Below, in pieces: positions 19,648 through 57,568 of a stretch of DNA of 59,975 nt. Location: positions 1 to 59,975 of the forward strand of contig JAFWIP010000006.1 in assembly GCA_017514805.1 (NCBI GenBank). The letters are read 5' to 3'. Position 1 is the first letter of the stretch, and every line of letters begins with the position of its first letter. Under the pieces are notes generated by a model. That model was not told the DNA's origin. It saw only the letters and a program-made list of their open reading frames with translations, and made no database searches. The position numbers and the translations under genes were made by a program. Origin of the DNA: Candidatus Saccharimonadota bacterium (lineage in GTDB: Bacteria; Patescibacteriota; Saccharimonadia; Saccharimonadales; Saccharimonadaceae).

Positions 19648-21509
19648 TGCCATCAATTTTAATTGTCGGAAATATTACGAAAGACGTATATTTACGCCTA
19701 GACAATCGCATAAACAATTTTGAGACTGATCAAAACGGCGTAAAATGGCTCGACATCGCCTTTGATAATACTCGCCACCATTATTATTCACGCGTTAGTA
19801 TTTACGGCGGCGCCAGCATTAGTCTCGAAGTCCTTAGCCGCTTTGGAATTAATGCCAGCATTTCTGGCACTCCTGCAACCTTTCTAGATGGCCAGTTTAT
19901 CGCGAAAGACATCCATACGACCTATCGTTACATTCTTTGCCAAGACGAGAATACTAGTCACCTCGTTCCGAGCGATGAGGTATACACAAGCTGGCAAGTA
20001 CCTGAGAATAATCCAGATTGGATCTACCTAGATAGTTCCGCAGTAATCTCACCAAAACTTGCTACCGAAATCCTAGATTTCCTCAACCTGAGTCGCAACA
20101 CAAAACTTGCGTTATTCGTCGGCAGACATGCCAATCAGAACACAAGTCATATCCAAGCTTTAATTGAACGCGCGAACCTAATAATCAATAGCGTTCCGCT
20201 CGAAAAGACCGTTAATAATAACGTCTATATCGGCAACGATCGAATCGAATACCAAGGACGCCGCGTATTCTGGACTCTCAGTAACAAACGCGATATTCTT
20301 ACGCGTCTATCTGTCCATTTAACGATTGCCGCTTCCGTACTTGGCGCCCTCGCTCTCGGCAAAGAACCCGGCGAAGCACTCTTGCTTGCTCGCGCTAATG
20401 CCGAAAATTCCAAACTCAGCAGCACCCTAAACCTCAGCACCCTCGAAAAGAACATCGCCGATGATTACTATCGCGTCCAAAAGATAAATGAAAAAGGAGA
20501 ATCAATGTCCGAGATAGAGAATACTGCCGCAAAACTAATGACACCGGGTAAAGGTATTTTAGCTGCTGACGAATCCGGCGGGAGCATTCATAAAAAATTT
20601 GAAACTATGGGCATCCCAGACGACGAGCAACATCGCCGCGATTATCGCAATATCTTCTTCACTACGCCAGATCTTGAGAAATACGTTAGTGGCGTTATTC
20701 TATTCGACGAAACCGCCCGCCAAACCGCCGATAACGGCAAACTATTCGTAGATTACCTTCAGGAACGCGGCGTCATTCCTGGCATAAAGGTAGATCAGGG
20801 TCTTGTCAACTTCGAGAATTCAGACGAAAAATATACACAAGGCTTAGACGATCTCCCAACACGCCTTAAAGAATATTACGATATGGGCGCACGCTTCGCA
20901 AAATGGCGCGCCGCCTTCGAAGTAACTGACCATAGCCCAAGCAACCTCGCAATCAGTAAAAACTGCGAAATACTTGCTAATTACGCACACGATTGCCAGA
21001 ACGCAAATATCGTGCCAATCGTTGAGCCAGAGCTCGTTTATGACGGAAATTATTCAATCGAGCAAAATATCGAATATACTGGCAAAATCCTCGATTGCCT
21101 CTTCGATGAGTTAGAAAAGAAACAGATAAATCTTGCCGGCTGTATTCTAAAGGTTAATATGGTCCTCGCAGGAAAGCAGCAAAGCATTCAATCAACTCCA
21201 GCCGAAGTCGGCCGTGCTACTGCACAAGTTCTACGCGAGCATGTTCCGCGCAATCTCGCTGGTGTAGTCTTTCTTTCCGGCGGTCAAAGCGTCACGCAAG
21301 CTACCGAAAACCTCCAGGCCGTTACTAACAACGGACCATTCCCATGGGCCGTTACATTCTCCTATGCACGCGCGCTTCAAGATCCAGCCCTTCAGGCTTG
21401 GCGAGGCGACAATAATAATGCCGATGCCGCCCGCGAAGCTTTCAAGGCACGCTTAATTGCCAATACGGAAGCATTAAAGGTAAAACAAGATGCCTACCAA
21501 ACCGAGTAA
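19647..21509 (+). CDS. fusion: PfkB-like sugar-kinase domain plus class I fructose-bisphosphate aldolase
   Basis: 620 aa. Residues 1-285 resemble a PfkB/ribokinase fold: the ILIVGNITKDVYL start and the GGASISLEVLSRFG cofactor region. The C-terminal catalytic GAGD motif is not evident, so the kinase may be inactive. Residues 287-620 are a complete class I aldolase: GILAADESGGSI near its N terminus, a WRAAF block, the Schiff-base lysine in CILKVNMV and the FLSGGQS phosphate site. It would split fructose-1,6-bisphosphate in glycolysis. AAGGAG (20494-20499) lies 5 nt before an in-frame ATG at 20505, so a separate aldolase may also be made. It overlaps the gene on each side. Confidence 0.88.
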   Translation: MPSILIVGNITKDVYLRLDNRINNFETDQNGVKWLDIAFDNTRHHYYSRVSIYGGASISLEVLSRFGINASISGTPATFLDGQFIAKDIHTTYRYILCQDENTSHLVPSDEVYTSWQVPENNPDWIYLDSSAVISPKLATEILDFLNLSRNTKLALFVGRHANQNTSHIQALIERANLIINSVPLEKTVNNNVYIGNDRIEYQGRRVFWTLSNKRDILTRLSVHLTIAASVLGALALGKEPGEALLLARANAENSKLSSTLNLSTLEKNIADDYYRVQKINEKGESMSEIENTAAKLMTPGKGILAADESGGSIHKKFETMGIPDDEQHRRDYRNIFFTTPDLEKYVSGVILFDETARQTADNGKLFVDYLQERGVIPGIKVDQGLVNFENSDEKYTQGLDDLPTRLKEYYDMGARFAKWRAAFEVTDHSPSNLAISKNCEILANYAHDCQNANIVPIVEPELVYDGNYSIEQNIEYTGKILDCLFDELEKKQINLAGCILKVNMVLAGKQQSIQSTPAEVGRATAQVLREHVPRNLAGVVFLSGGQSVTQATENLQAVTNNGPFPWAVTFSYARALQDPALQAWRGDNNNADAAREAFKARLIANTEALKVKQDAYQTE

Positions 21510-21927
21510 ATACAAAAAGCACGGCAAAGATTATCTAGAAGAAGCCGTTGCAAAATCAACATACCATTACAAGCCGATCACGCGCAAGCGTGCTGCAGTA
21601 GCTGCCCTAATTGGCATCCCATTCGGCTGGTCCGGCATCCATAACTTCATGATGCGCCGCCGCAAACGCGCCGCCCTCCATTTCATTATCAGCACTATTG
21701 CAATTAGCATGTTTTTCTATCCATTAAGCTATGGTATCGCCGTTGTTTATCAGTGCCAACATGGTGGCGAATGTATCGATATGTCTGGCTATGACGACAC
21801 TTTCAATGTACTAATTATCGTCGGCCTAATTTCATTCGCACTAAATATCCTATGGGGAATTATTGAATCAGTAATTATTCTCATTAATATTAACCGCTTT
21901 CCAAAGACTACCGACATCAATTCTTGA
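21490..21927 (+). CDS. TM2-type small membrane protein
   Basis: 145 aa. A basic N terminus (about 1-32) precedes a hydrophobic hairpin containing GIPFGWSGIHNFMMRRRKRAA, the Gly-His-Asn and basic turn typical of TM2 domains. A longer loop with two cysteines and a final helix (about 105-130) follow. It overlaps the end of the aldolase fusion by 20 nt, so it is probably translated from the same mRNA. The gene ends in TGA, one sign that the standard code is used. Function is unknown for most bacterial TM2 proteins. Confidence 0.75.
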   Translation: MPTKPSKYKKHGKDYLEEAVAKSTYHYKPITRKRAAVAALIGIPFGWSGIHNFMMRRRKRAALHFIISTIAISMFFYPLSYGIAVVYQCQHGGECIDMSGYDDTFNVLIIVGLISFALNILWGIIESVIILININRFPKTTDINS

Positions 21928-21952
21928 CAAATAGCCAAAAATAGAGCATAAT
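21924..21952 (+). promoter_or_regulatory. canonical promoter before the 21992 gene
   Basis: TTGACA (21924-21929), 17-nt spacer, CATAAT (21947-21952), followed by AT-rich sequence and an AGGAGGTGG ribosome site. It overlaps the end of the TM2-type gene. Confidence 0.78.
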
Positions 21953-21991
21953 ATATACACTATATTATATCTCTTGTAGGAGGTGGTCCTT

Positions 21992-22444
21992 TTGAAAAAA
22001 TACAGTTTAGAAAGCGGTCGTATTTTTGAATACGATTCAGAGGCTAAGCCAATCGAAGAATTAAGCGAATTCTATGAAGAAATCATGAGACGCAATAACG
22101 GCGACATTAACCCTAATTTCAACGAGTCTCACATTTACATTCATCTACAATGCAATAGTTCTTGTACGAGCGAAGACGTAATAAACGATGCTTCCGACGA
22201 AAAGAAAGAACGAGTACGCAAAATCGTACGCAATTACGTTCATGGCGAGAAAGACTCTGGAATCCCATATATCATTTATCTCAAGCGATCACGGAAGTGT
22301 GAGTCAATCTGCCTGGAATGTATAAAAACAGACGAAACCGCCTATTGGCGAGTGCTTCGAGCAAAACAGATCGAAAGCGCCGACATAGAATACCTCGTCA
22401 GGGTGTTAAAGAATCTCGATATATACGACCTCCAAAAAATCTAA
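21992..22444 (+). CDS. small soluble protein, unknown
   Basis: 150 aa from a TTG start. AGGAGG at 21978-21983 lies 8 nt before this TTG; a GTG at 21983 overlaps the ribosome site and is less likely. The protein is mixed alpha/beta and charged, with five cysteines but no metal-binding spacing that I recognise. It belongs to a set of small genes here with TTGACA-17-TATAAT promoters and strong ribosome sites (12860, 37257-37559, 39896-40150, 40310, 47083). A shared terminator separates it from the convergent rplY gene. Confidence 0.65.
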   Translation: MKKYSLESGRIFEYDSEAKPIEELSEFYEEIMRRNNGDINPNFNESHIYIHLQCNSSCTSEDVINDASDEKKERVRKIVRNYVHGEKDSGIPYIIYLKRSRKCESICLECIKTDETAYWRVLRAKQIESADIEYLVRVLKNLDIYDLQKI

Positions 22445-22449
22445 ACAAG

Positions 22450-22483
22450 AAAAATCCCCGCGGCTTATGTCACGGGGATTTTT
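22450..22483. terminator. bidirectional intrinsic terminator
   Basis: Stem AAAAATCCCCG / CGGGGATTTTT at 22450-22460 and 22473-22483, a 12-nt loop and T runs on both strands. It separates the convergent 21992 gene and rplY. Confidence 0.92.
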
Positions 22484-22490
22484 AGTTGAA

Positions 22491-23177
22491 TTACTCAGCT
22501 TTTTCTTCAGCTGGAGCTTCTGCGCCTTCTGCGGCAGCAGCTGCATCTTCGGCAGCCTTCGCCTCATCAGCAGCCTTGTCGGCTTCAGCTTTCGCTTCAC
22601 GCTCAGCAGCTTCCGTAGCTGGATCATAAACGTTAGCGATTGGAAGTTCTTTGTCGATTTCCTTATCAGCGAATTCGACACCCTTTGGAAGAACGATATC
22701 TGCAACAGTTAGACCATCTTCAGCGGTTGCTAGCTTAGCAGCATCAACCTCAATTGCTTCTGGGAGATCAGCTGGCTTTGCCTTAACATCAATCTCTTCA
22801 AGGACAACAGAGAGTACGAGATGAGCCTTTGATGCATCAGAAGTCTCAAAGTTAACAATCTTGATTGGTGTAGTAGCTTCAACAACTTCGTTCGCGGAGA
22901 TTGCCTGGAACTCAATGTTGCGAATGAAACGCTTAACTGGATCAATATCGACAGACTTAACTAGAACCATCTGAGACTTACCATCAATCGTAAGATCGAT
23001 AGGGGAATGGTAGCCAGCCAAACGGACTGCTTTTTCGGTTTCATTATAGCTAGACTGAGTAAGAATTGGCTCCTTGCCACCAAAAACGACAGACGGAATC
23101 AAGCCTTGCTCACGCAAGCTTTTTACTTTTTTACCTGACACTTCGCGCTTTGCGAGTGCTAATTTTGTATCGCTCAT
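22491..23177 (-). CDS. rplY: 50S ribosomal protein L25, general stress protein Ctc type
   Basis: 228 aa. An L25 5S-rRNA-binding domain (about 1-95; opens with LALAKREVSGKKVKSLREQG and has IPSVVFGG) is followed by a C-terminal TL5/Ctc beta domain (about 98-185) and an Ala/Glu-rich tail of about 40 residues. The two-domain form is the TL5/Ctc version. On the minus strand a TATAAT box lies about 35 nt upstream and AGGAA precedes the ATG, so this mRNA has a leader. Confidence 0.94.
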   Translation of the reverse strand: MSDTKLALAKREVSGKKVKSLREQGLIPSVVFGGKEPILTQSSYNETEKAVRLAGYHSPIDLTIDGKSQMVLVKSVDIDPVKRFIRNIEFQAISANEVVEATTPIKIVNFETSDASKAHLVLSVVLEEIDVKAKPADLPEAIEVDAAKLATAEDGLTVADIVLPKGVEFADKEIDKELPIANVYDPATEAAEREAKAEADKAADEAKAAEDAAAAAEGAEAPAEEKAE

Positions 23178-23264
23178 TAAATTTATTCCTATTTTTAAAA
23201 TCTGTATTATATTTTAAGATAAGCAGAAGAGAAAATCAAGCATAAGCGTGCTAAAATATAGAGT

Positions 23265-24332
23265 ATGGAACTAAATTTCGTAATAGCTCAGCTACTTGCC
23301 GTTATTGGCTGGTTTTTCCTTATCTATAGCTATTACAAAGAAGATATTCACCAGCTGCTCAAAATGCAGATTATAGCTTGTAGCTTCGAAACGCTCAGCT
23401 ATCTCGCATTAGGCGCCTGGTCGGGCATCTTCGCCTGCTTACTAGATCTAATAAAAGCAGTCCTATATTACAAATCAGATAAAAAATCCCTTATTTTCTT
23501 CGCGACCCTCCCATTTTATGTAGTTTTAGCTATCTTTGCCGTCCAAGAAGAAGGCTGGATCGCGCTTCTACCGGCAATTGGCGGCGTCATCGACGGCTTT
23601 GTCCTCACTCGCAGTAAAACAACCGCAACTATTGGCAGCATTATCGCCAGCACGCTCTGGGTCATCTATGACGTAGTTGTTCTTGCTTATGCTGCCGCTG
23701 CTGCCGATATGGTACTAATCACCTCCAATTTCTTCGTCCTTTTCCTCGGGTACAGCCGCATTATGCATATCGAAAAACTGCATGTTATTAAGTGTCAGTA
23801 TCTTACGCGCAACCTCAGCATTAACATCCTTAACCTTGACCGCAAAAATTACCCAGCCCAATATCTCTGGAGCATTAATCAGCAGAGGAATATCTTTAAA
23901 CTCAATCCAGACTCAATCCTCTTAATTCGCAACAAAAAGCGCATCATTGGATACATCAACTATCTTACAATTACCGAAGAGAGCTATAAGCACATTAAGC
24001 GCGCTCAGGTATTCTATCGCGATATATCGCCAGAGAGCATCGTTCCAATGAAGCGCCGCCGCAAAAACTTCCTTCTCATCGAAAGCATCTGTATCGATAA
24101 AAGCTACGATTCTGATAAAATGGTCAGCTTTATCTTGCGCCATTTCCGAACGTTCTTACGTAACCGTCACAAACAAGGCTACAACGTTCACGGCATCGTT
24201 TCTGTCGCCATATCAGACTTCGAAAAAGAGTTTCTAGAAGCCGGCAATTTCGCCCATATAAAAGATTATCGCGACGGAGAAGCGCTCTACGAGCTAGATG
24301 ATATCGCCGTTGCAAAATATATTAAAGGATAG
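23265..24332 (+). CDS. YgjV-like membrane domain fused to a GNAT-like domain
   Basis: 355 aa. Residues 1-165 are five or six short hydrophobic helices with the IGWFFLIYSYYKED start and ITSNFFVLFLGYSRI end of the YgjV (Imp-YgjV) family. Residues 175-355 look like a GNAT-type acyltransferase: beta strands LLIRNKKRIIGYIN, a strand-helix step LLIESICIDKSYDSDKMVSFIL and a Gly near the end. The acceptor is unknown; a membrane-bound acyltransferase acting on lipid or wall precursors would fit. TAAAAT at 23252-23257 is 7 nt before the ATG. The 3' end overlaps uvrA by 11 nt, tail to tail. Confidence 0.72.
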   Translation: MELNFVIAQLLAVIGWFFLIYSYYKEDIHQLLKMQIIACSFETLSYLALGAWSGIFACLLDLIKAVLYYKSDKKSLIFFATLPFYVVLAIFAVQEEGWIALLPAIGGVIDGFVLTRSKTTATIGSIIASTLWVIYDVVVLAYAAAAADMVLITSNFFVLFLGYSRIMHIEKLHVIKCQYLTRNLSINILNLDRKNYPAQYLWSINQQRNIFKLNPDSILLIRNKKRIIGYINYLTITEESYKHIKRAQVFYRDISPESIVPMKRRRKNFLLIESICIDKSYDSDKMVSFILRHFRTFLRNRHKQGYNVHGIVSVAISDFEKEFLEAGNFAHIKDYRDGEALYELDDIAVAKYIKG

Positions 24333-27192
24333 CTTTTAGGTATTTACCGGTATCACTCTTTGAATTGCGAGCGACATCTTCTGGTGTGCCAGTAGCAACA
24401 ACCTTGCCGCCGCCCTGGCCACCTTCTGGACCCATATCAATAATCCAGTCCGCCGACTTAATTACATCCAAATTATGTTCAATCACGATCATCGAATTGC
24501 CGCCATCGACTAAACGTTGTAAAATCGACAACAATCTATTAACGTCGTCCGTATGGAGTCCAGTTGTTGGCTCGTCAAGAATATATAGCGTCTTTCCAGT
24601 CGAGCGACGGCTAAGCTCAGTCGCGAGCTTGATGCGCTGCGCTTCGCCGCCAGAAAAAGTCGTAGCTGGCTGACCAAGCTTAATATAACCTAAACCAACT
24701 TCCTGAAGAGTCTTTAGCTTGTTTGCGATATTCGGAATCGCATCAAAGAATTCGACCGCTTCATCAACCGTCATTTCGAGCACATCAGAGATCGTTTTAT
24801 CCTTAAACTTTACTTCCAACGCCTCGCGATTATAGCGCTTACCATGACAAACGTCACAAGTTACAAATACGTCCGGCAAGAAATGCATCTCAATCTTCAA
24901 AACACCATCACCCTGACACTTTTCGCAACGACCGCCCTTAACATTAAAGGAGAAGCGGCCCGGCTTATAGCCACGCACCTGCGCTTCAGGTTGCTCAGCG
25001 AATAAGTCACGAATATAATTAAATATCCCCGTATATGTCGCAGCGTTTGAGCGAGGAGTGCGTCCAATTGGCGACTGATCAATCACAATAACTTTGTTTA
25101 GGTTTTCAATACCATCAATTCGCTCATGTGCGCCAGCAACCGTCTGTGCGCGATTAAGGCGAGCAGAAAGCTCATTAGCAAGAATTTCGTTTACTAATGT
25201 TGATTTACCCGAACCGGATACGCCAGACACGACCGTAAGTACGCCAAGCGGGAATTTAACATCAATATTCTTTAAGTTATTCTCGCGCGCACCAATAACC
25301 TCGAGCCAACGGTTCGAAATCTTACGACGCTTCTTCGGAACACTAATCTTCTTTTTGCCAGAAATATATTGACCAGTAATCGAAGAAGGAATCTTTGCAA
25401 CTTCCGCTGGAGTGCCCGCAGCGATAACTTTACCGCCATTCACACCTGCGCCCGGACCAATATCTACAAGATAATCAGCCTGCATAATCGTATCATGATC
25501 GTGCTCGACGACAATGACGGTATTCTTTAGATCACGTAGATGTTTTAGGGTAGCAATCAAGCGATCATTGTCGCGTTGATGGAGCCCAATTGAAGGCTCA
25601 TCAAGAACATAAAGCACACCCTGTAAGCCAGAACCAATCTGCGTCGCAAGACGAATACGCTGCGCCTCACCACCAGATAGCGTCGCCGCCGAACGCCCTA
25701 GTTCGAGATAGTTCAAGCCAACATCTTTCATAAAACCAACACGCGCCTTGATTTCTTTTAGAATCGGACCAGCGATTTTTTGCTCATTCTCCGTAAGACC
25801 TAAGTCAGAATTAAGCACTTCAAGCGTCTGCTCAACATCCATCGCGCACATATCCATAATATTTAAATCATGAATCGTAATCGCAAGCACTACTGGCTTA
25901 AGACGCGCGCCATGGCAAGTCTGGCAAATACGTTCACGCATGAAGCGCTCGATATCTTTACGAATAAAATCTGATTCCGTTTCTTTGTAGCGACGTTCTA
26001 GATTTGGAATTACACCCTCATAAACCGCATCGTAATCGTAGCCGCTATTTAGCTTTACGTGATATTTTTCATCACCCGTGCCATAAAGAATCATATGGAT
26101 GTGCTCATCGGAAAGCTCGCGAATTGGCGTACGCACTGAAAAACCATGACGATCACCCACAGCTTGTAGACGCTTCAACCACCACGCATCTTGGTTCACG
26201 CGATTATACGGGCGAATACCGCCTTCGGCGATTGTTAGATTTGGATTAAGTACTAGGCTAGGATCAATCTCCATACGAGTACCGAGACCAGTACAGGTCG
26301 GACACGCACCTTGCGGAGCATTGAAAGAGAAGAGGCGCGGCTCAAGTTCTGGAATTAATTCGTCCGGATGATCTGGACAAGCATAGCGCTGCGAATAGGT
26401 CACAATCTCGGCGTCCTGCGTATTAATATTGTTCTGCCCAATCGCAACAGACTGATCGCGAATGCAAAGAATTTTCATAATACCATCACCTAGCTCTAAT
26501 GCCTGCTCAACAGAGCCAGAAACGCGACTCTCCATATCCGGCGCCATCACGAAACGATCTACAATAATCTCAATGTCATGGCGAAGATTCTTGTCTAGCT
26601 CTGGCCATTCATCGAGCGCATAAATAATGCCATCGACACGTGCGCGCGCAAAACCTTTCGCGAGATATTGTTCGCCAATATGCGAGAATGAGCCTTTTTT
26701 CTGCGTCACGATTGGCGCCAAAACCATCAGCTTGCTCGCCGTCGGCCATTTCATAACCTTGTCAATTACGTCCTGCGTAGTCTGACGAGTAACTTCTTTA
26801 TGACAAATCGGACAATGCGGTACGCCAATACGCGCAAATAATAGACGTAAGTAATCATAAATTTCCGTAACCGTCGCCACTGTAGAGCGAGGATTGCGCG
26901 AAGTAGATTTCTGATCAATCGAAATTGCCGGACTAAGCCCTGTAATCATATCGACATCTGGCTTATCCATTACGCCAAGAAACATACGCGCGTACGAAGA
27001 GAGCGATTCAACATAGCGTCGCTGACCTTCCGCGTAAATCGTATCAAAAGCTAAGCTCGACTTGCCCGAACCGGACAAACCTGTAATCACAACGAGTTTA
27101 TCGCGCGGAATATCAATATCGATATTCCGTAAATTATTCGCACGGGCGCCACGAATTCTAATCATGTCGCCGCCAAAAGCTTGCTCTTCCAT
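24322..27192 (-). CDS. uvrA: excinuclease ABC subunit A
   Basis: 956 aa, full length. Two ABC modules are seen: Walker [10 protein letters not shown] near the N terminus and GVSGSGKST near residue 660, signatures [12 protein letters not shown] and [12 protein letters not shown], and Walker [14 protein letters not shown] and [13 protein letters not shown]. Zinc fingers CPICHKE...CPDH, CQTCHG and CEKCQG...CDVCHG are present. It recognises bulky lesions and loads UvrB (35234-37207). On the minus strand TATAAT lies 7 nt before the ATG, with no ribosome site. uvrA and uvrB are not linked; no uvrC is in the window. Confidence 0.98.
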
Positions 27193-47941: not shown

Positions 47942-50134
47942 GTGGAGTATACTCAGCGTCGTAGGAGTGGACGCTTGCGATTACTTATCGCTGCAGCTAT
48001 AGCCATTGTTTTTGCATTCTCATTTTCTTCTTCATTTTCTAGCTCCGCCGCAACGGCGATATTTAAGATCCAAAACGTCGAACTGTCCGAAATCTCCGCT
48101 ACTTCTGAGGGCTCTATTGAATATTCCGACGGAGAAAATATCACCAGCAACATAAAATTCAATCGGCTAGGCGACTCAGCAAAATTCACTATCACAATTA
48201 AAAATACCGACAGTAACGCCCACACAATCGAGTCCATCACAAACGACAATACGAGCGCCTACATTAGCTACCTGCACGATTCTTATGTAAATACATCAGT
48301 AAAAGCGGGCGAAACTTTCGACTTCATCGTAACCGTAAAATACATTAGCACCATTGCAAATCCAAGCGAAAGCGCTCAAGCCACAAACGTCAAATTCACT
48401 ATCAAATATCAAGACGGCGAACCAGAAACAATCGCAATTAATCCTCAGACCTGGGATAATATTTCGGTAAATATCACCTCGCTAATCGTCTTTTTTGCCG
48501 GCCTTATAATTATCAGCGTCATAGCATTCAAGAAACACCGCAAGGCAAGCAAGATGTTTATTATTGGTGTTATCGCAGTCGCAGCCGTCACGACAACCAC
48601 AACCGCAAAGGCCATAACTATAGAGGCGAACGATTTTACACTCACGACCAACTTCACTCTCAAAGCTGGTCGCATTATTCACTATAACGGCAATTATCCA
48701 GACGGCGGCACCATGGAAGACGATCGCCTAACTGGCACTGGCACACTAAAGCCAAACGCCTATACCGCCATCGGCTACCACTTCGCCGGTTGGTCACTCG
48801 TGCCTGATGGCGAAAAGGTTTATGGCGACGAAGAGCCGATGAGCAATATTTCAGATGGCGACGAGCCACTCACTCTTTATGTTATCTGGGAACAAAATAC
48901 TTACACGATCGTTTTTCATGCCAACTCAGCACAAGCCACCGGAAGTATGGAACCATTTGCGGCCAAATACGACAACTATCGCTTGCGCCTCCCATATAAT
49001 GAATTCGTCTTGAATGAATATCGTTTTACGGGTTGGAAAGTCGACAATCAAGGCAGCCTAATTCAAGATGGCGCTAGCGCCGATCAATTCGAAACCGAAA
49101 ATAATGGCACAGTCAATCTCTACGCACAATGGGAATTAGTCCCAGCGGGAATCGATTATTACAAAAATGGTACCGAAGCAGAAGGCGTTACAGAACGTCA
49201 AGAGAACTTTGGCAGAACTACAGCCCTCCGCACGCCAAACTACCGCCGCAACGGCTACGGTTTTGCAGGCTGGAATACGGAACCGGACGGTACCGGCACG
49301 ATGTATGGTCCGAATGAAACCGTCACGATGCCATCAACTGGCTTAAAACTCTATGCTACTTGGATGCAAGCAGAAGAGAACGTCACGATGCAAACATTCG
49401 ACGATACTGCTGAACCATATGCTTCCTACCCGACTAATAAAGTAATCGCTCTAAAAGACAATCGCGATAATCAAGTCTATACCGTCGCAAAACTACCAGA
49501 CGGCAAGTGGTGGATGACAGAAAATCTCCGCCTAAATCCAGCCGGCATTCAACTTACGGCAGAGAACACCAACAATCCAACCCCAGCAGTACAAAACATT
49601 ACTGGCTCAGGAACAACATGCGCAGAAAATACGACCGCATGCATTAATCAATTTTCATATACAAGCAGTAGCCTAGCTCCATCCGGTAGCCATGGAGCCT
49701 TCGCTTATGGCAACGGCGTATACTATAATGCCTACGCGGCCACCGCCGGTCATGCCGCAGTCGATGCCGAGAATCTTGTAACCGAACAAGTGGCGGGCGA
49801 CATTTGTCCAAAAGGTTGGCATCTCCCAGTCAGCGGAGCAAATGGCGACATTAGAACTCTCGACATTAGTCTCGGCGGCAATGGCTATAATACACTTTAT
49901 GACTTCGAGCATGCTCAAAAGTATTTTAAATTCCCAATTAACTTTATCACTTCCGGCTGGAGAGAAGGAAAAACCGGCGCTTACAAAAACATTGGTACCG
50001 AAGCTGCATATCTAGAAAACGGCACCGACGGCTTCAATCATAGTGTCAGTTTCTTCGTTGACGCAGCCACGAAAATCATAGACGGCACCAACCCTAAATA
50101 CTACACTCATACCGTTCGCTGTATCGCGAACTAA
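47942..50134 (+). CDS. surface protein with InlB-type repeats and a FISUMP domain
   Basis: 730 aa, GTG start with AAGGGAG upstream. A signal/anchor helix (about 12-36), an external beta domain (about 40-170) and two further helices (about 178-198 and 203-222) are followed by three InlB/Listeria-Bacteroides-type repeats (about 235-475; each has a GYxFAGW or YRFTGW core and ends near LYxxW). A FISUMP-type domain (about 495-730) carries KWWMTENLRL, GDICPKGWHLP and a closing HTVRCIAN. The fold order is typical of large surface proteins. There is no C-terminal anchor, so it is held by the N-terminal helices. Confidence 0.83.
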   Translation: MEYTQRRRSGRLRLLIAAAIAIVFAFSFSSSFSSSAATAIFKIQNVELSEISATSEGSIEYSDGENITSNIKFNRLGDSAKFTITIKNTDSNAHTIESITNDNTSAYISYLHDSYVNTSVKAGETFDFIVTVKYISTIANPSESAQATNVKFTIKYQDGEPETIAINPQTWDNISVNITSLIVFFAGLIIISVIAFKKHRKASKMFIIGVIAVAAVTTTTTAKAITIEANDFTLTTNFTLKAGRIIHYNGNYPDGGTMEDDRLTGTGTLKPNAYTAIGYHFAGWSLVPDGEKVYGDEEPMSNISDGDEPLTLYVIWEQNTYTIVFHANSAQATGSMEPFAAKYDNYRLRLPYNEFVLNEYRFTGWKVDNQGSLIQDGASADQFETENNGTVNLYAQWELVPAGIDYYKNGTEAEGVTERQENFGRTTALRTPNYRRNGYGFAGWNTEPDGTGTMYGPNETVTMPSTGLKLYATWMQAEENVTMQTFDDTAEPYASYPTNKVIALKDNRDNQVYTVAKLPDGKWWMTENLRLNPAGIQLTAENTNNPTPAVQNITGSGTTCAENTTACINQFSYTSSSLAPSGSHGAFAYGNGVYYNAYAATAGHAAVDAENLVTEQVAGDICPKGWHLPVSGANGDIRTLDISLGGNGYNTLYDFEHAQKYFKFPINFITSGWREGKTGAYKNIGTEAAYLENGTDGFNHSVSFFVDAATKIIDGTNPKYYTHTVRCIAN

Positions 50135-53160: not shown

Positions 53161-53215
53161 GCAAGGGTTGGTTGCGGCTCACCACAAAGCAAGCAACCAA
53201 GCCCTTGCGTTTTTT
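53161..53215 (+). terminator. long stem-loop with T run at the left edge of the accessory element
   Basis: GCAAGGGTTGGTTGC (53161-53175) pairs with GCAACCAAGCCCTTGC (53193-53208) with one bulged base, followed by GTTTTTT. On the plus strand it is a strong terminator. On the minus strand it lies just after the stop of the 53214-55385 gene and is followed by TTTCTGTCTT, so it could serve that gene. No convincing plus-strand gene precedes it apart from the remnant. The 310 nt between 52903 and 53214 otherwise hold only that remnant and a TATAAT at 53129-53134. Confidence 0.75.
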
Positions 53216-55385
53216 AATGTTTTTTATGTTTAGAACAATCTGGACATGTAATTGTTGAGCTTCTTACCTTATTGTATACAGATGCCTGCCACTCTCTCCC
53301 ACACTCGGAACATTTCCACCACACTTTTTTATTTGAATAAGCCGAAATATTTTCTGGTTTTAAATTACCATTCTTCTCATAGTTCCACACCTTTACGACA
53401 TTTGGGAAAACAGACAATAAGCTCTTCTTATGGTCTTTTACGACGGTATTGGCTTTGCCGGTTTTTGAATAGCCACATTTTTTGCAGCCATAACCTTGGC
53501 ATCTGCTATAAACCTGTGCTTGCCATTCATACCCGCACTTAGAGCATTTCCACCATGCCTTATAATGTGCGCCTTTCGACAGTTTTTCTGGCAAAATATC
53601 ATTTTTGGAATAATCCCATTCCTTTAATAGCTCCGGGTATTCGTCGACAATGGATTGTTTTTTGGCAGACGTTTGGAATAACTCATAAATCTTGCCTAGG
53701 TCTCTATCGACATTTACGTCAAATTCTTTTTCTCCTACAAGCAATTTTAAGACTTTCAAAATAGGCTGATTAAGGTGTGAATAATCACTACTATTTAATG
53801 CGTCAATGCGAATGTCTGTTGAATAACCGTCAAGTTTTGGCAATTCCGGTTCTCTAATCCTGATTAGTTTTATTCCTAATTCTTTGCACAGCAAATTTTT
53901 AGCTAAATCTTTGGTTGGGTTCTTATGATAATATTGACCGTCATATTCAATTCCAACTTGCATTTTTGGTATAAAAATATCTAATTCTCGACGTTCAATT
54001 TTCTTACTTTCCTCTATTTCTACGCCATACAAACGAAGATAATATGCAAAGGCTTTTTCTGATACTGACGTATGTTTATTCGTATCGCAGATTGGGCAAT
54101 AATGCCCCTTATTCCTGCTAACAATAGTCGCTTGCCATTCATGACCATTCTCACATATCCACCAAACTTTTTTCGGCGAACCAGCAATTATATTTTGCGG
54201 AGTCAACCCTTTATTCTTTTTGTAATTCCATTCCTTTGCCAAAGATGGATTAATGGTAGCTAGGTCATTAAAGCCGGTCAATACTTTTCTATTAGAACAA
54301 TACGGGCAACCCGCCTTGGCTCTATGGCTTGGCGACGCTTGCCATTCGTGACCTTTTTCGCAAATCCACCAAACTTTTTTAGTAGAGCCAAACATAGTAT
54401 CTTGTGGTTTTAAGACGCCATTTCTTTTATAGTTCCATTCTTCCGCTAATTTCGGGTATTTAGTAGCTAAATCATTAAAACCAGACCACAACTTTTGGTT
54501 TGCACAATATGGACAATTAGTTCGCATTCTATTATTTGGTGACGCTTGCCATTCGTGACCATTTTCACATATCCACCAAACTTTCTTATTGGAATTTGCC
54601 GTGATATCGCTTGGTGTCAGCGTCCCATTTTTCTTATAGTTCCACTCCTTGGACACTACGGGATTTACAACCTGTAAATTATTCTCTTCGCTCACTCGTC
54701 TATTAGCACAATATGGGCAACCACGATATCCGTCTTTTGTTCTATTGAGTATGCTTGCTTTCCATTCATGACTATTTTCGCATTTCCACCAGACTACTTG
54801 CGAAGAATGGGCAGTAACGTCATTTGGTGCTAATCCTATATTTTTTTCATAATCCCATTCAACGGCAACCTTTGGGCAAACAGTCACTAAATCATTTACC
54901 CCCTGCCTTAAATAAACCCTTTTACTATTACGAAGCGAACAGCCTTTGCATGTAGTCTTTCCCGAATTTGCAGCTCTTCCACATATCGAAGATTGCCACT
55001 CTTTCCCACACTCGGAACATTTCCACCACACTTTTTTATTTGAATAAGCCGAAATATTTTCTGGTTTTAAATTACCATTCTTCTCATAGTTCCACACCTT
55101 TACGACATTTGGGAAAACAGCAAGCAAGCTTTTGTCGGCACTTTTTATCGTGGCGTTATTATTGCCAACCTTTTGAGCCCCACATTTAGGACAATTGTGT
55201 CCTTTATTTCTAACGCTAATTTGAGTTTGCCATTTGTTTTGGCATTTTTTACAAATCCACCATGCTTTTTTGCTGCTACCCAAAGTTAATTCATTGGGAT
55301 TTAACCCTATCTTTTCATTGGCTTCAAAATCCCATTCAAATATCAACTCTGTTTCAGAAACAACTTTTTTCCCAATATTTTTCAT
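53214..55385 (-). CDS. nuclease-like protein embedded in eight zinc-ribbon repeats
   Basis: 723 aa. Six repeats (about 1-430) precede, and two (about 555-720) follow, a PD-(D/E)XK/Vsr-like domain (about 440-548; SEKAFAYYL, ELDIFIP, GIEYDGQYYHK, KLIRIRE). Each repeat has an EWNYxKN start, a VWWxCxxxHEW or CSECGKEW centre and a CPYC end, as in the 'probable zinc-ribbon' (DUF4379-type) family. It would bind and perhaps cut DNA. The first of two near-identical repeats is duplicated over 127 bp at the other end of the gene. TATAAT on the minus strand is 7 nt before the ATG. A role in mobility or defence is inferred. Confidence 0.8.
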   Translation of the reverse strand: MKNIGKKVVSETELIFEWDFEANEKIGLNPNELTLGSSKKAWWICKKCQNKWQTQISVRNKGHNCPKCGAQKVGNNNATIKSADKSLLAVFPNVVKVWNYEKNGNLKPENISAYSNKKVWWKCSECGKEWQSSICGRAANSGKTTCKGCSLRNSKRVYLRQGVNDLVTVCPKVAVEWDYEKNIGLAPNDVTAHSSQVVWWKCENSHEWKASILNRTKDGYRGCPYCANRRVSEENNLQVVNPVVSKEWNYKKNGTLTPSDITANSNKKVWWICENGHEWQASPNNRMRTNCPYCANQKLWSGFNDLATKYPKLAEEWNYKRNGVLKPQDTMFGSTKKVWWICEKGHEWQASPSHRAKAGCPYCSNRKVLTGFNDLATINPSLAKEWNYKKNKGLTPQNIIAGSPKKVWWICENGHEWQATIVSRNKGHYCPICDTNKHTSVSEKAFAYYLRLYGVEIEESKKIERRELDIFIPKMQVGIEYDGQYYHKNPTKDLAKNLLCKELGIKLIRIREPELPKLDGYSTDIRIDALNSSDYSHLNQPILKVLKLLVGEKEFDVNVDRDLGKIYELFQTSAKKQSIVDEYPELLKEWDYSKNDILPEKLSKGAHYKAWWKCSKCGYEWQAQVYSRCQGYGCKKCGYSKTGKANTVVKDHKKSLLSVFPNVVKVWNYEKNGNLKPENISAYSNKKVWWKCSECGREWQASVYNKVRSSTITCPDCSKHKKH

Positions 55386-55521: not shown

Positions 55522-56796
55522 ATGAACAATGAAAGACTGTCAGATACGATAACCTATAATTTGTCGGCAATGCGTCGCGCGCACGAAGCCATTGTTGTTG
55601 CTTTAAAAGCCGGCAAATACGACGGCGAAAAGATTGAGTCAAAAGAACTAAATAAATTACCGCAAGTTGATTATCGGATTTGCAGAGCCATTGAAATTGG
55701 CGAATTGTTAGATAAAGTTGTTGGCAATGCACCGTATAGGGCATATGGTGTTCTCGCCACAAGTTACAAATTGCTATGTCTTAATTTGCACCAAAGAATT
55801 AGCGAAATTGACCAGGATAAAAAACCTTCCGAATATCTTTCACCAAAACAGTTGATTCCGCCAAAGGACATTGACATTAAAAGCGTTGAGAAATGTAAAG
55901 TCACATTGGAAAAATGGTTGGCTGATAAGAATCTTAAACGTTATGTAAAACCCTACGAAGAAGATATTGACCGGTTAAACAAATTGGCTAATTATTGCGA
56001 TAATCAATTCAAGAATCAAAAGAATTACCCTGGCGACAAGTTGGTTTTTAGCCCTTTCCCGGATTCTGTATTGTATTACGCGAATCAATTATTCCAAGAT
56101 TGCTTAAACAAAATAATGGAGGCAGACGACGATAAGGCTAGAAAAGCCGTTGAGGTAGATGGAAAACCGGCGGGCAAAATAATGACCAAAACGTGCGGTA
56201 TGGACGACATACTGTGTGACTTTGAAAGAACGTATGGACTACTAACCGAATTGTTAAATGGTGCAATGTATGACAATAAAGAACTGACTAAGAGCCAAAC
56301 CGGTAGGCTGAAAGAAATTGATTCGTATTACCGCCAAATAATAGACGTCAGCAAGAGTTTTGTTGTTTTATTTGATTATCTCAATTTTTATCAAGGTCAT
56401 TTTGGAGAACGACGATATGCACGCACTTGGCTAAAATCCGGTTTAAATGTCGTTTATGACGAATTAACGCGTATTTTCTACCAAACACTAGATAATAAAC
56501 GTTTTAAGAATTGGACGGGTTGTCGTAAATTGAAAACCCCGGACATTGCGCTTGGGAATACTGTTGTTTCGCTCAAAGATATTGCTAGTTGGCTAAACGA
56601 CGAAAAGGCTATGAAAACTCTGCAAGATTATGAATATGATATGGAACAATCGTTAAGCCTTAAAAATATTGAGCAAAGGCTAATTAACGGTCAAAATGAA
56701 GAATACTTTACAATTGTAAAACCATTTCGCGATTCGCTTAATGAATTTATAAACATTACTCATTACAATTGCCAAGAGGCATTAAAAACAGCGTAA
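55522..56796 (+). CDS. unknown mainly helical protein of the accessory element
   Basis: 424 aa with no signal or membrane segment and no motif I recognise. The helical density is high, with scattered cysteines and many Lys/Asp/Tyr residues. TATAAT at 55510-55515 is 6 nt before the ATG and there is no ribosome site, so it is probably leaderless. Its stop is followed by an in-frame, strongly basic 40-codon stretch and a repeat-rich gap. Codon use is more T-rich than in the core genes, consistent with transfer. Confidence 0.68.
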   Translation: MNNERLSDTITYNLSAMRRAHEAIVVALKAGKYDGEKIESKELNKLPQVDYRICRAIEIGELLDKVVGNAPYRAYGVLATSYKLLCLNLHQRISEIDQDKKPSEYLSPKQLIPPKDIDIKSVEKCKVTLEKWLADKNLKRYVKPYEEDIDRLNKLANYCDNQFKNQKNYPGDKLVFSPFPDSVLYYANQLFQDCLNKIMEADDDKARKAVEVDGKPAGKIMTKTCGMDDILCDFERTYGLLTELLNGAMYDNKELTKSQTGRLKEIDSYYRQIIDVSKSFVVLFDYLNFYQGHFGERRYARTWLKSGLNVVYDELTRIFYQTLDNKRFKNWTGCRKLKTPDIALGNTVVSLKDIASWLNDEKAMKTLQDYEYDMEQSLSLKNIEQRLINGQNEEYFTIVKPFRDSLNEFINITHYNCQEALKTA

Positions 56797-56965
56797 AAAA
56801 CAGCGTCAAAACAGCGTCAAAAAAACAACGGAAAAACAACGGCAAACTACGGTTTTTATGAAAAAACGACGAAAAAACGACGACGAACGAGGACGAAGGC
56901 GGCGGCTCTGTAAAAAAGTAACAGCCGAATAACAGCCATAAAACAGCGATAAATTTCTGAATCAT
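56785..56965. repeat. short direct repeats in the gap after the 55522 gene
   Basis: Repeated units are AAAACAGCGTC and variants (near 56787-56818), AAAAACAACGG (twice, near 56823-56844), AAAAAACGACG (near 56862-56885) and AACAGCC/AACAGCG (near 56920-56950). The pattern resembles iterons or a slipped repeat tract. The 398 nt between 56796 and 57194 hold these repeats and then the structured RNA at 57013-57146. Confidence 0.5.
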
Positions 56966-57012
56966 AACCGGCTTATGGATATATTTTTAACCCGTTTCAT
57001 GGTATAATTTTA

Positions 57013-57155
57013 TTGTCTACACAATTTTGAACAAGTCGAAAATCTGTAAGAGCAGATTTATCGAGATTAGAAAACGGCAACTGTCCGAAAAACAATCTCG
57101 ATACGATTTGTTCGGTGTAGACAACCTAGGACGGTTGTCGTTTTTTATCCGACAA
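57013..57155 (+). ncRNA. structured RNA with terminator, possible riboswitch/attenuator or small RNA
   Basis: TGGTATAAT (hexamer 57003-57008) sets the start near 57014. Pairing: P1 57013-57022 with 57115-57124 (10 bp, perfect); P2 57029-57038 with 57104-57113 (10 bp, one G-U); hairpin P3 57040-57046 with 57053-57059 (7 bp); P4 57060-57068 with 57094-57102 (9 bp) with a 25-nt A-rich loop holding CGG/CCG. This is a three-way junction. A terminator follows: GACAACC (57120-57126) / GGTTGTC (57133-57139), G, then six T. P1 and the terminator share 57120-57124, so they exclude each other. TTGTCG (57135-57140) can also pair with CGACAA (57150-57155). The 57194 gene begins 48 nt after the T run. Confidence 0.75.
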
Positions 57156-57193
57156 TCGACAAAAAATACTAATAACCAAGGAGGTATTTTCAA

Positions 57194-57568
57194 ATGGAAG
57201 GCGTATTAGCAATTGTTGTTGGTTGGATTATCGTAGCGGCAATTTTCGGTCTTTTTAAAAGCGGCGGCAAAAACAAGAACCGTGAAAAAAGTGGCAACAT
57301 TTTCACTGGTGATTATGCCGATAAAATAGTCAAAGACGCAGCAAGAAAAAGCAAAGAAGCCGAAATGCGAAAAGATATATTTGCTTCCGAAGAATCCTGG
57401 GAACTTTATAAGAGCGATTTTCGTAAGTTAAACAAATCTCAACAAGAGTATGAAATAAAATATATTACGAAAAAGTTACGCGCAAAGCACGAATATAAAG
57501 AAAAGGAAGATGTGCGCGATAAAATCGACGAGGCAATTCGTGAGCTGGAATTAATATATCGCGCGTAA
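57194..57568 (+). CDS. small protein with N-terminal membrane helix, accessory element
   Basis: 124 aa. One helix (about 3-22) is followed by a basic stretch and a charged helical domain. AAGGAGG about 8 nt upstream supports the ATG. It is placed just downstream of the structured RNA and its terminator, so expression may depend on read-through. No family recognised. Confidence 0.68.
   Translation: MEGVLAIVVGWIIVAAIFGLFKSGGKNKNREKSGNIFTGDYADKIVKDAARKSKEAEMRKDIFASEESWELYKSDFRKLNKSQQEYEIKYITKKLRAKHEYKEKEDVRDKIDEAIRELELIYRA

Follow-up and report, generated by a model that had tools for sequence, protein, structure and literature searches.

Many bacterial riboswitch and attenuator leaders are 5' leaders in which a structured domain lies directly upstream of the regulated gene, and the closing stem of this domain shares bases with an intrinsic terminator, so that mutually exclusive folds are possible. 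T-box leaders contain a conserved sequence of the AGGG..ACCG type that can pair with the 3' arm of the terminator. In pseudoknot riboswitches of the preQ1, SAM-II and fluoride types, a loop pairs with a downstream strand overlapping the expression platform. Countertranscript-driven attenuation leaders of the pT181/pIP501 type combine a leader hairpin, an intrinsic terminator and competing complementary segments. In type III toxin-antitoxin loci (ToxIN), a promoter, a structured RNA and a terminator are followed by a gene. We analyzed a leader-like RNA in a window of 59,975 nucleotides (positions 1 to 59,975, forward strand, of contig JAFWIP010000006.1, assembly GCA_017514805.1) from a Candidatus Saccharimonadota bacterium. 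The RNA shares with each of these systems the features described above. Compared with riboswitch and attenuator leaders, however, no conserved aptamer core was seen, the competing strand is a hairpin loop inside the domain that takes the terminator's 3' arm and the start of the U-tract, and the downstream genes encode surface proteins and DNA methylases. Compared with T-box leaders, no Rfam T-box match, no stem I and no UGGN tRNA-acceptor motif in the loop concerned were found, and the target genes are unrelated to amino acids. Compared with the pseudoknot riboswitches, the loop-strand pairing is 9-17 bp and is itself the conserved core, whereas the stems drift freely. Compared with the pT181/pIP501 type, no antisense transcript is known here and the antisense-like segment is in cis, in the loop. 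Compared with ToxIN, the RNA is a single non-repeated unit, and the downstream proteins are membrane proteins or methylases, none of which resembles ToxN in the families searched. On these grounds, the T-box and type III toxin-antitoxin readings were rejected.

The preliminary description of this locus had proposed a promoter, a three-way-junction RNA and a terminator, and this observation is confirmed, with all parts at the positions given there. An extended -10 box, TGgTATAAT, is located at 57000-57008 (all features of the RNA are on the + strand). P1, which starts at the likely transcription start, is 10 bp (57013-57022/57115-57124), P2 is formed by 57028-57038/57104-57114, P3 (hairpin 57041-57058) by 57041-57047/57052-57058, and P4 (with its apical loop, 57059-57103) by 57059-57068/57094-57103. 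The intrinsic-terminator-like hairpin (57120-57139) consists of a 5' arm, T5' (57120-57126), and a 3' arm, T3' (57133-57139), and is followed by a six-base U-tract (57141-57146). A Shine-Dalgarno sequence AAGGAGG (57178-57184) precedes the downstream gene (57194-57568, +), which encodes a 124-aa protein with a conserved N-terminal membrane segment and a C-terminus that is variable among relatives. The region folds at -59 kcal/mol (z = -7.2), and 0 of 200 dinucleotide shuffles were as stable. P1 and the terminator had been described as unable to form together because they share 57120-57124. The overlap is real but affects only 5 of the 10 P1 pairs, so they compete by strand displacement and are not wholly exclusive (terminator-forced fold, -45.8 kcal/mol; P1-forced fold, -47.3 kcal/mol). 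The further pairing that would break the terminator, originally placed at 57135-57140 with 57150-57155, is 9 bp in the predicted fold (57132-57140/57150-57158); we call its post-terminator segment D1 (57150-57158).

Upstream of the RNA, the promoter block (56967-57008, +) contains an inverted-repeat-like stretch, GGGT/GGAT-ATATTTTTA-ACCC, and the block is conserved at three related loci, L003, L006 and L007. The GG(G/A)TATATTTTTAACCC block just upstream of the -10 box (56967-56999) is nearly identical in four loci although the RNA behind it differs, and looks like an operator. Low-complexity A-run repeats (AAAACAGCG / AAAACGACG) lie at 56790-56910, between the 55522 gene and the promoter, and are also present in L003, L006 and L007. 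In two genomes (loci L013/L016), a long inverted repeat CTTCAAAGGGTTTTCC..GGAAACCCTTTGAAG lies just upstream of the promoter.

DNA similarity searches detected no other copy of the window element within its genus and no match among phage records, and pattern scans of viral contigs gave no hits, although exact patterns are a weak test for so divergent an RNA. The downstream protein led to L003, a syntenic locus in a Saccharibacteria MAG (82% protein identity), whose leader differs almost wholly in sequence but has the same layout, including the P1/terminator overlap. The leader of another relative, used as a DNA query, gave further copies in other gene contexts and in a second genus. First alignments with MAFFT misplaced P4 between subgroups, which was solved by realigning with the model. 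A covariance model from seven of these copies (R1) found the RNA in 55 of 394 family genomes, and a second model from 62 matches (R2) found it in 103 of 393 genomes of the class (Saccharimonadia), in 35 of 153 genera. In a sample of the whole phylum, all ten genomes with a match were inside the class; by the listed order about 262 sampled genomes lay outside it, and none matched. With full scoring, 15 chosen genomes held 1 to 38 copies. The window copy was used in neither model, and it scores 27.1 bits with R1 and 46.1 bits with R2 (E 2e-7 in 272 kb), although the genome-wide search missed it at its first-pass stage. It is a divergent member of the family. The same genome has a second, canonical copy on the minus strand (L104; contig C11, 16776-16941) before a DNA methyltransferase-like gene, in which a second terminator-like hairpin (GACACCGGCAACGGTGTCTTTTC) follows the first, as in loci L077, L080 and L088. 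No match to the 4227 Rfam families at or above gathering threshold was found for the RNA in the window or in 15 related loci, and loose thresholds gave only chance hits. Literature searches on riboswitches, structured RNAs and small RNAs of Saccharibacteria/TM7, which did not cover subscription papers and preprints, found no description of this element.

Absence of compensatory changes in homologues had been named beforehand as a result that would refute the structure; instead, every P1, P2 and P4 pair of the model changes on both sides. In 101 distinct sequences, P1 is 99.4% paired (all 10 pairs covary), P2 93.4% and P4 94.3% (all 8 modelled pairs covary in each). Overall, 95.2% of cells are paired, with 1051 double-sided changes against 283 shuffled, and the covariation score is 0.896 against 0.216 shuffled and at most 0.135 for slid controls. 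Twenty-seven paralogs inside one genome give 0.904 against 0.205. P3 is variable in the family; compensatory changes in it were read by eye in L003, L006 and L007.

The key pairing was missed in the preliminary description: the best-covarying alternative pairing is not P1 against the terminator but the P4 apical loop with the terminator's 3' arm and the start of the U-tract, and it covaries better than the terminator hairpin. A strand of the P4 apical loop, L4 (57070-57086, GAAAACGGCAACTGTCC), is complementary to 57129-57145, that is, the T3' arm and the start of the U-tract. In the window this helix is 17 bp (-27.0 kcal/mol), and 1 of 2000 dinucleotide shuffles was as good. CM-based alignments lean towards the modelled structure, but the L4:T3' helix was not in the model. 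Nevertheless, 96.5% of its core cells pair in the family, with 68 double-sided changes against 14 shuffled and covariation of 0.365 against 0.184 shuffled and at most 0.107 for slid controls; L4:T3' covariation was also found in the 62-sequence set. The helix continues into the first U-tract base: 92 of 101 sequences are paired there against 62.8 shuffled, and of 20 sequences with a non-U at this position, 19 carry the complementary base before L4. In a swap test, L4 binds its own T3' at -15.1 kcal/mol and foreign ones at -11.2 kcal/mol, whereas T5' and D1 are much less specific. The inner pairs of the T5':T3' hairpin are conserved but covary little and its outer pairs are often mismatched, so terminator strength varies and some members may terminate poorly. 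Nucleotides conserved at 90% or more lie in L4, both terminator arms, the U-tract and two P1 pairs, and none lies in the junction. This is the signature of competing strands, not of a ligand pocket.

A TAnnAT box lies near the element in 96 of 102 members, in 80 of them 7 nt before the first conserved G of P1. The downstream gene is co-oriented in 84 of 91 cases (median distance 65 nt), against 37 of 95 for the upstream gene. After the terminator, D1 can pair with T3' in many members, including the window copy, for which its own T3' ranks first of 18 T3' variants. When T3' is available for D1, the predicted accessibility of the start codon rises from 0.43 to 0.52 (p = 0.02; real against shuffled T3', p = 0.0005), and in the window copy from 0.12 to 0.61. 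The overall gain is small, and these p values assume independent members. The D1 layer is strong in the expanded subfamily and in the window copy, but it is lineage-dependent and several lineages lack an evident D1, so D1 as a universal feature was rejected.

The downstream products include a 75-aa membrane protein (MKDRKTYK...), DUF4352 proteins and DNA methyltransferases of several types. In two genomes, G212 and G281, they include dozens of exported FISUMP-type paralogs of ~490-590 aa, with one RNA each. G212 also holds a diversity-generating retroelement (DGR; L181:3600-7584, that is, G212:C3, about 20600-24584), which comprises a reverse transcriptase (388 aa), a 280-aa accessory ORF, a FISUMP target (545 aa) and a template repeat. 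The template repeat differs from the adjacent target at 23 of 61 adenines and 0 of 176 other positions, and several RNA-led paralogs elsewhere in the genome carry related variable regions. The RNA is not a DGR template RNA, because it heads each gene while the template repeat in G212 is a separate sequence. The window itself encodes (47942-50134) a 730-aa protein with InlB-type repeats and a partial Fib_succ_major (FISUMP) match, the same domain family as the RNA-led paralogs in G212. It also encodes (53214-55385, minus strand) a 723-aa protein with eight DUF4379 treble-clef repeats and a weak endonuclease-like match (MTES_1575). Elsewhere in the same genome (C11, 132919-133476), there is a weak reverse-transcriptase match below the family cut-off, in a 333-aa ORF with retron-like similarity.

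From these results, we consider with moderate confidence that 57013-57160 is a member of a class-wide family of cis-acting leader RNAs. The comparison establishes the pairings and their conservation, the fixed spacing from a -10 box, the position directly before a co-oriented gene and the distribution; T3' is therefore a hub contested by L4, by T5' and, in many members, by D1. Transcription and regulated readthrough, in contrast, are inferred from sequence alone. In this view, when L4 captures T3' the terminator hairpin cannot form and RNA polymerase reads on, whereas when L4 is occupied or slow, T5' wins and transcription would stop at 57141-57146. In readthrough mRNA, pairing of T3' with D1 would help expose the start codon in some lineages. 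The stems would act mainly as a scaffold that presents L4 and holds T5', and the conserved L4 is the likeliest docking site for the unknown trigger, which may be a protein or an RNA. Duplex energies ignore kinetics and the geometric cost of a pseudoknot, and the sign of the switch is uncertain; antitermination by L4 is only slightly favored over L4 pairing as an OFF or 3'-end-protecting state. The preliminary interpretation is thus partly supported: attenuator-like logic in front of the 57194 gene, a structured RNA and the absence of a known class hold, cis action is favored over a discrete small RNA, and a conventional riboswitch is not supported.

It is possible, though less likely, that L4:T3' pairing is the OFF state, in which the captured 3' arm and U-tract help termination or, in escapees, leave D1 free to close the start codon, with T3':D1 as the ON state. 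Such pairing would place an 11-17 bp helix directly upstream of the U-tract, and T3' availability opens the predicted start codon in the G212-type members and the window copy; if D1 closes the start codon while L4 holds T3', the translational layer would oppose antitermination by L4. However, L4 pairing extends with covariation into the U-tract, whose bases are in the RNA-DNA hybrid when termination happens. This favors a state formed after polymerase has cleared them, that is, antitermination or 3'-end capture rather than L4 acting as the terminator stem, and lineages without an evident D1 also argue against the OFF model. A primarily stable small RNA, in which L4 caps and protects the U-rich 3' end or acts on other leaders in trans through the shared L4/T3' sequences, is unlikely. 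The L4 flank is often A-rich opposite the U-tract, although only its first pair covaries, and L4/T3' are nearly uniform within the G212 and G281 copies while the stems differ; a terminated form is also still expected. On the other hand, the tight co-orientation with the downstream gene, the T3':D1 complementarity reaching into the mRNA, and the different T3' sequences of the two copies in the window's own genome, which argue against obligatory cross-talk, do not fit it well.

A small-molecule riboswitch with an aptamer in the P1-P4 junction is also unlikely. The junction plus expression-platform layout and the multiple copies per genome are in its favor, but no junction nucleotide is conserved at 90% or more, the gene set is not one metabolic pathway, and no Rfam family matches. 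A fortuitous stable fold next to a plain terminator, for which only the general frequency of hairpins speaks, is refuted by the covariation, and the fold's z-score also speaks against it. A further possibility, which is speculative and improbable on present evidence, is a lineage-wide switch whose conserved core is only the switch itself, a loop pre-loaded with the complement of the terminator's 3' arm and U-tract. Because L4, T3' and D1 stay nearly identical among dozens of copies in one genome, terminated leaders could set each other's state in trans, giving coordinated or mutually exclusive expression of a DGR-related surface-protein repertoire in an episymbiont.

In conclusion, we found an RNA family that resembles an attenuator but belongs to no family tested. 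A loop selected to capture a terminator's 3' arm and U-tract, without a visible aptamer core, is an unusual attenuator design. Saccharibacteria are tiny episymbionts that live attached to other bacteria, and the mechanisms governing their switch between attached and free states have been described as completely unknown in a 2024 review (PMC11665869). This RNA provides a concrete, testable candidate regulator: across the class it sits on genes for membrane and surface proteins and DNA methyltransferases, and in two genomes it heads dozens of surface proteins related to the target of a diversity-generating retroelement.
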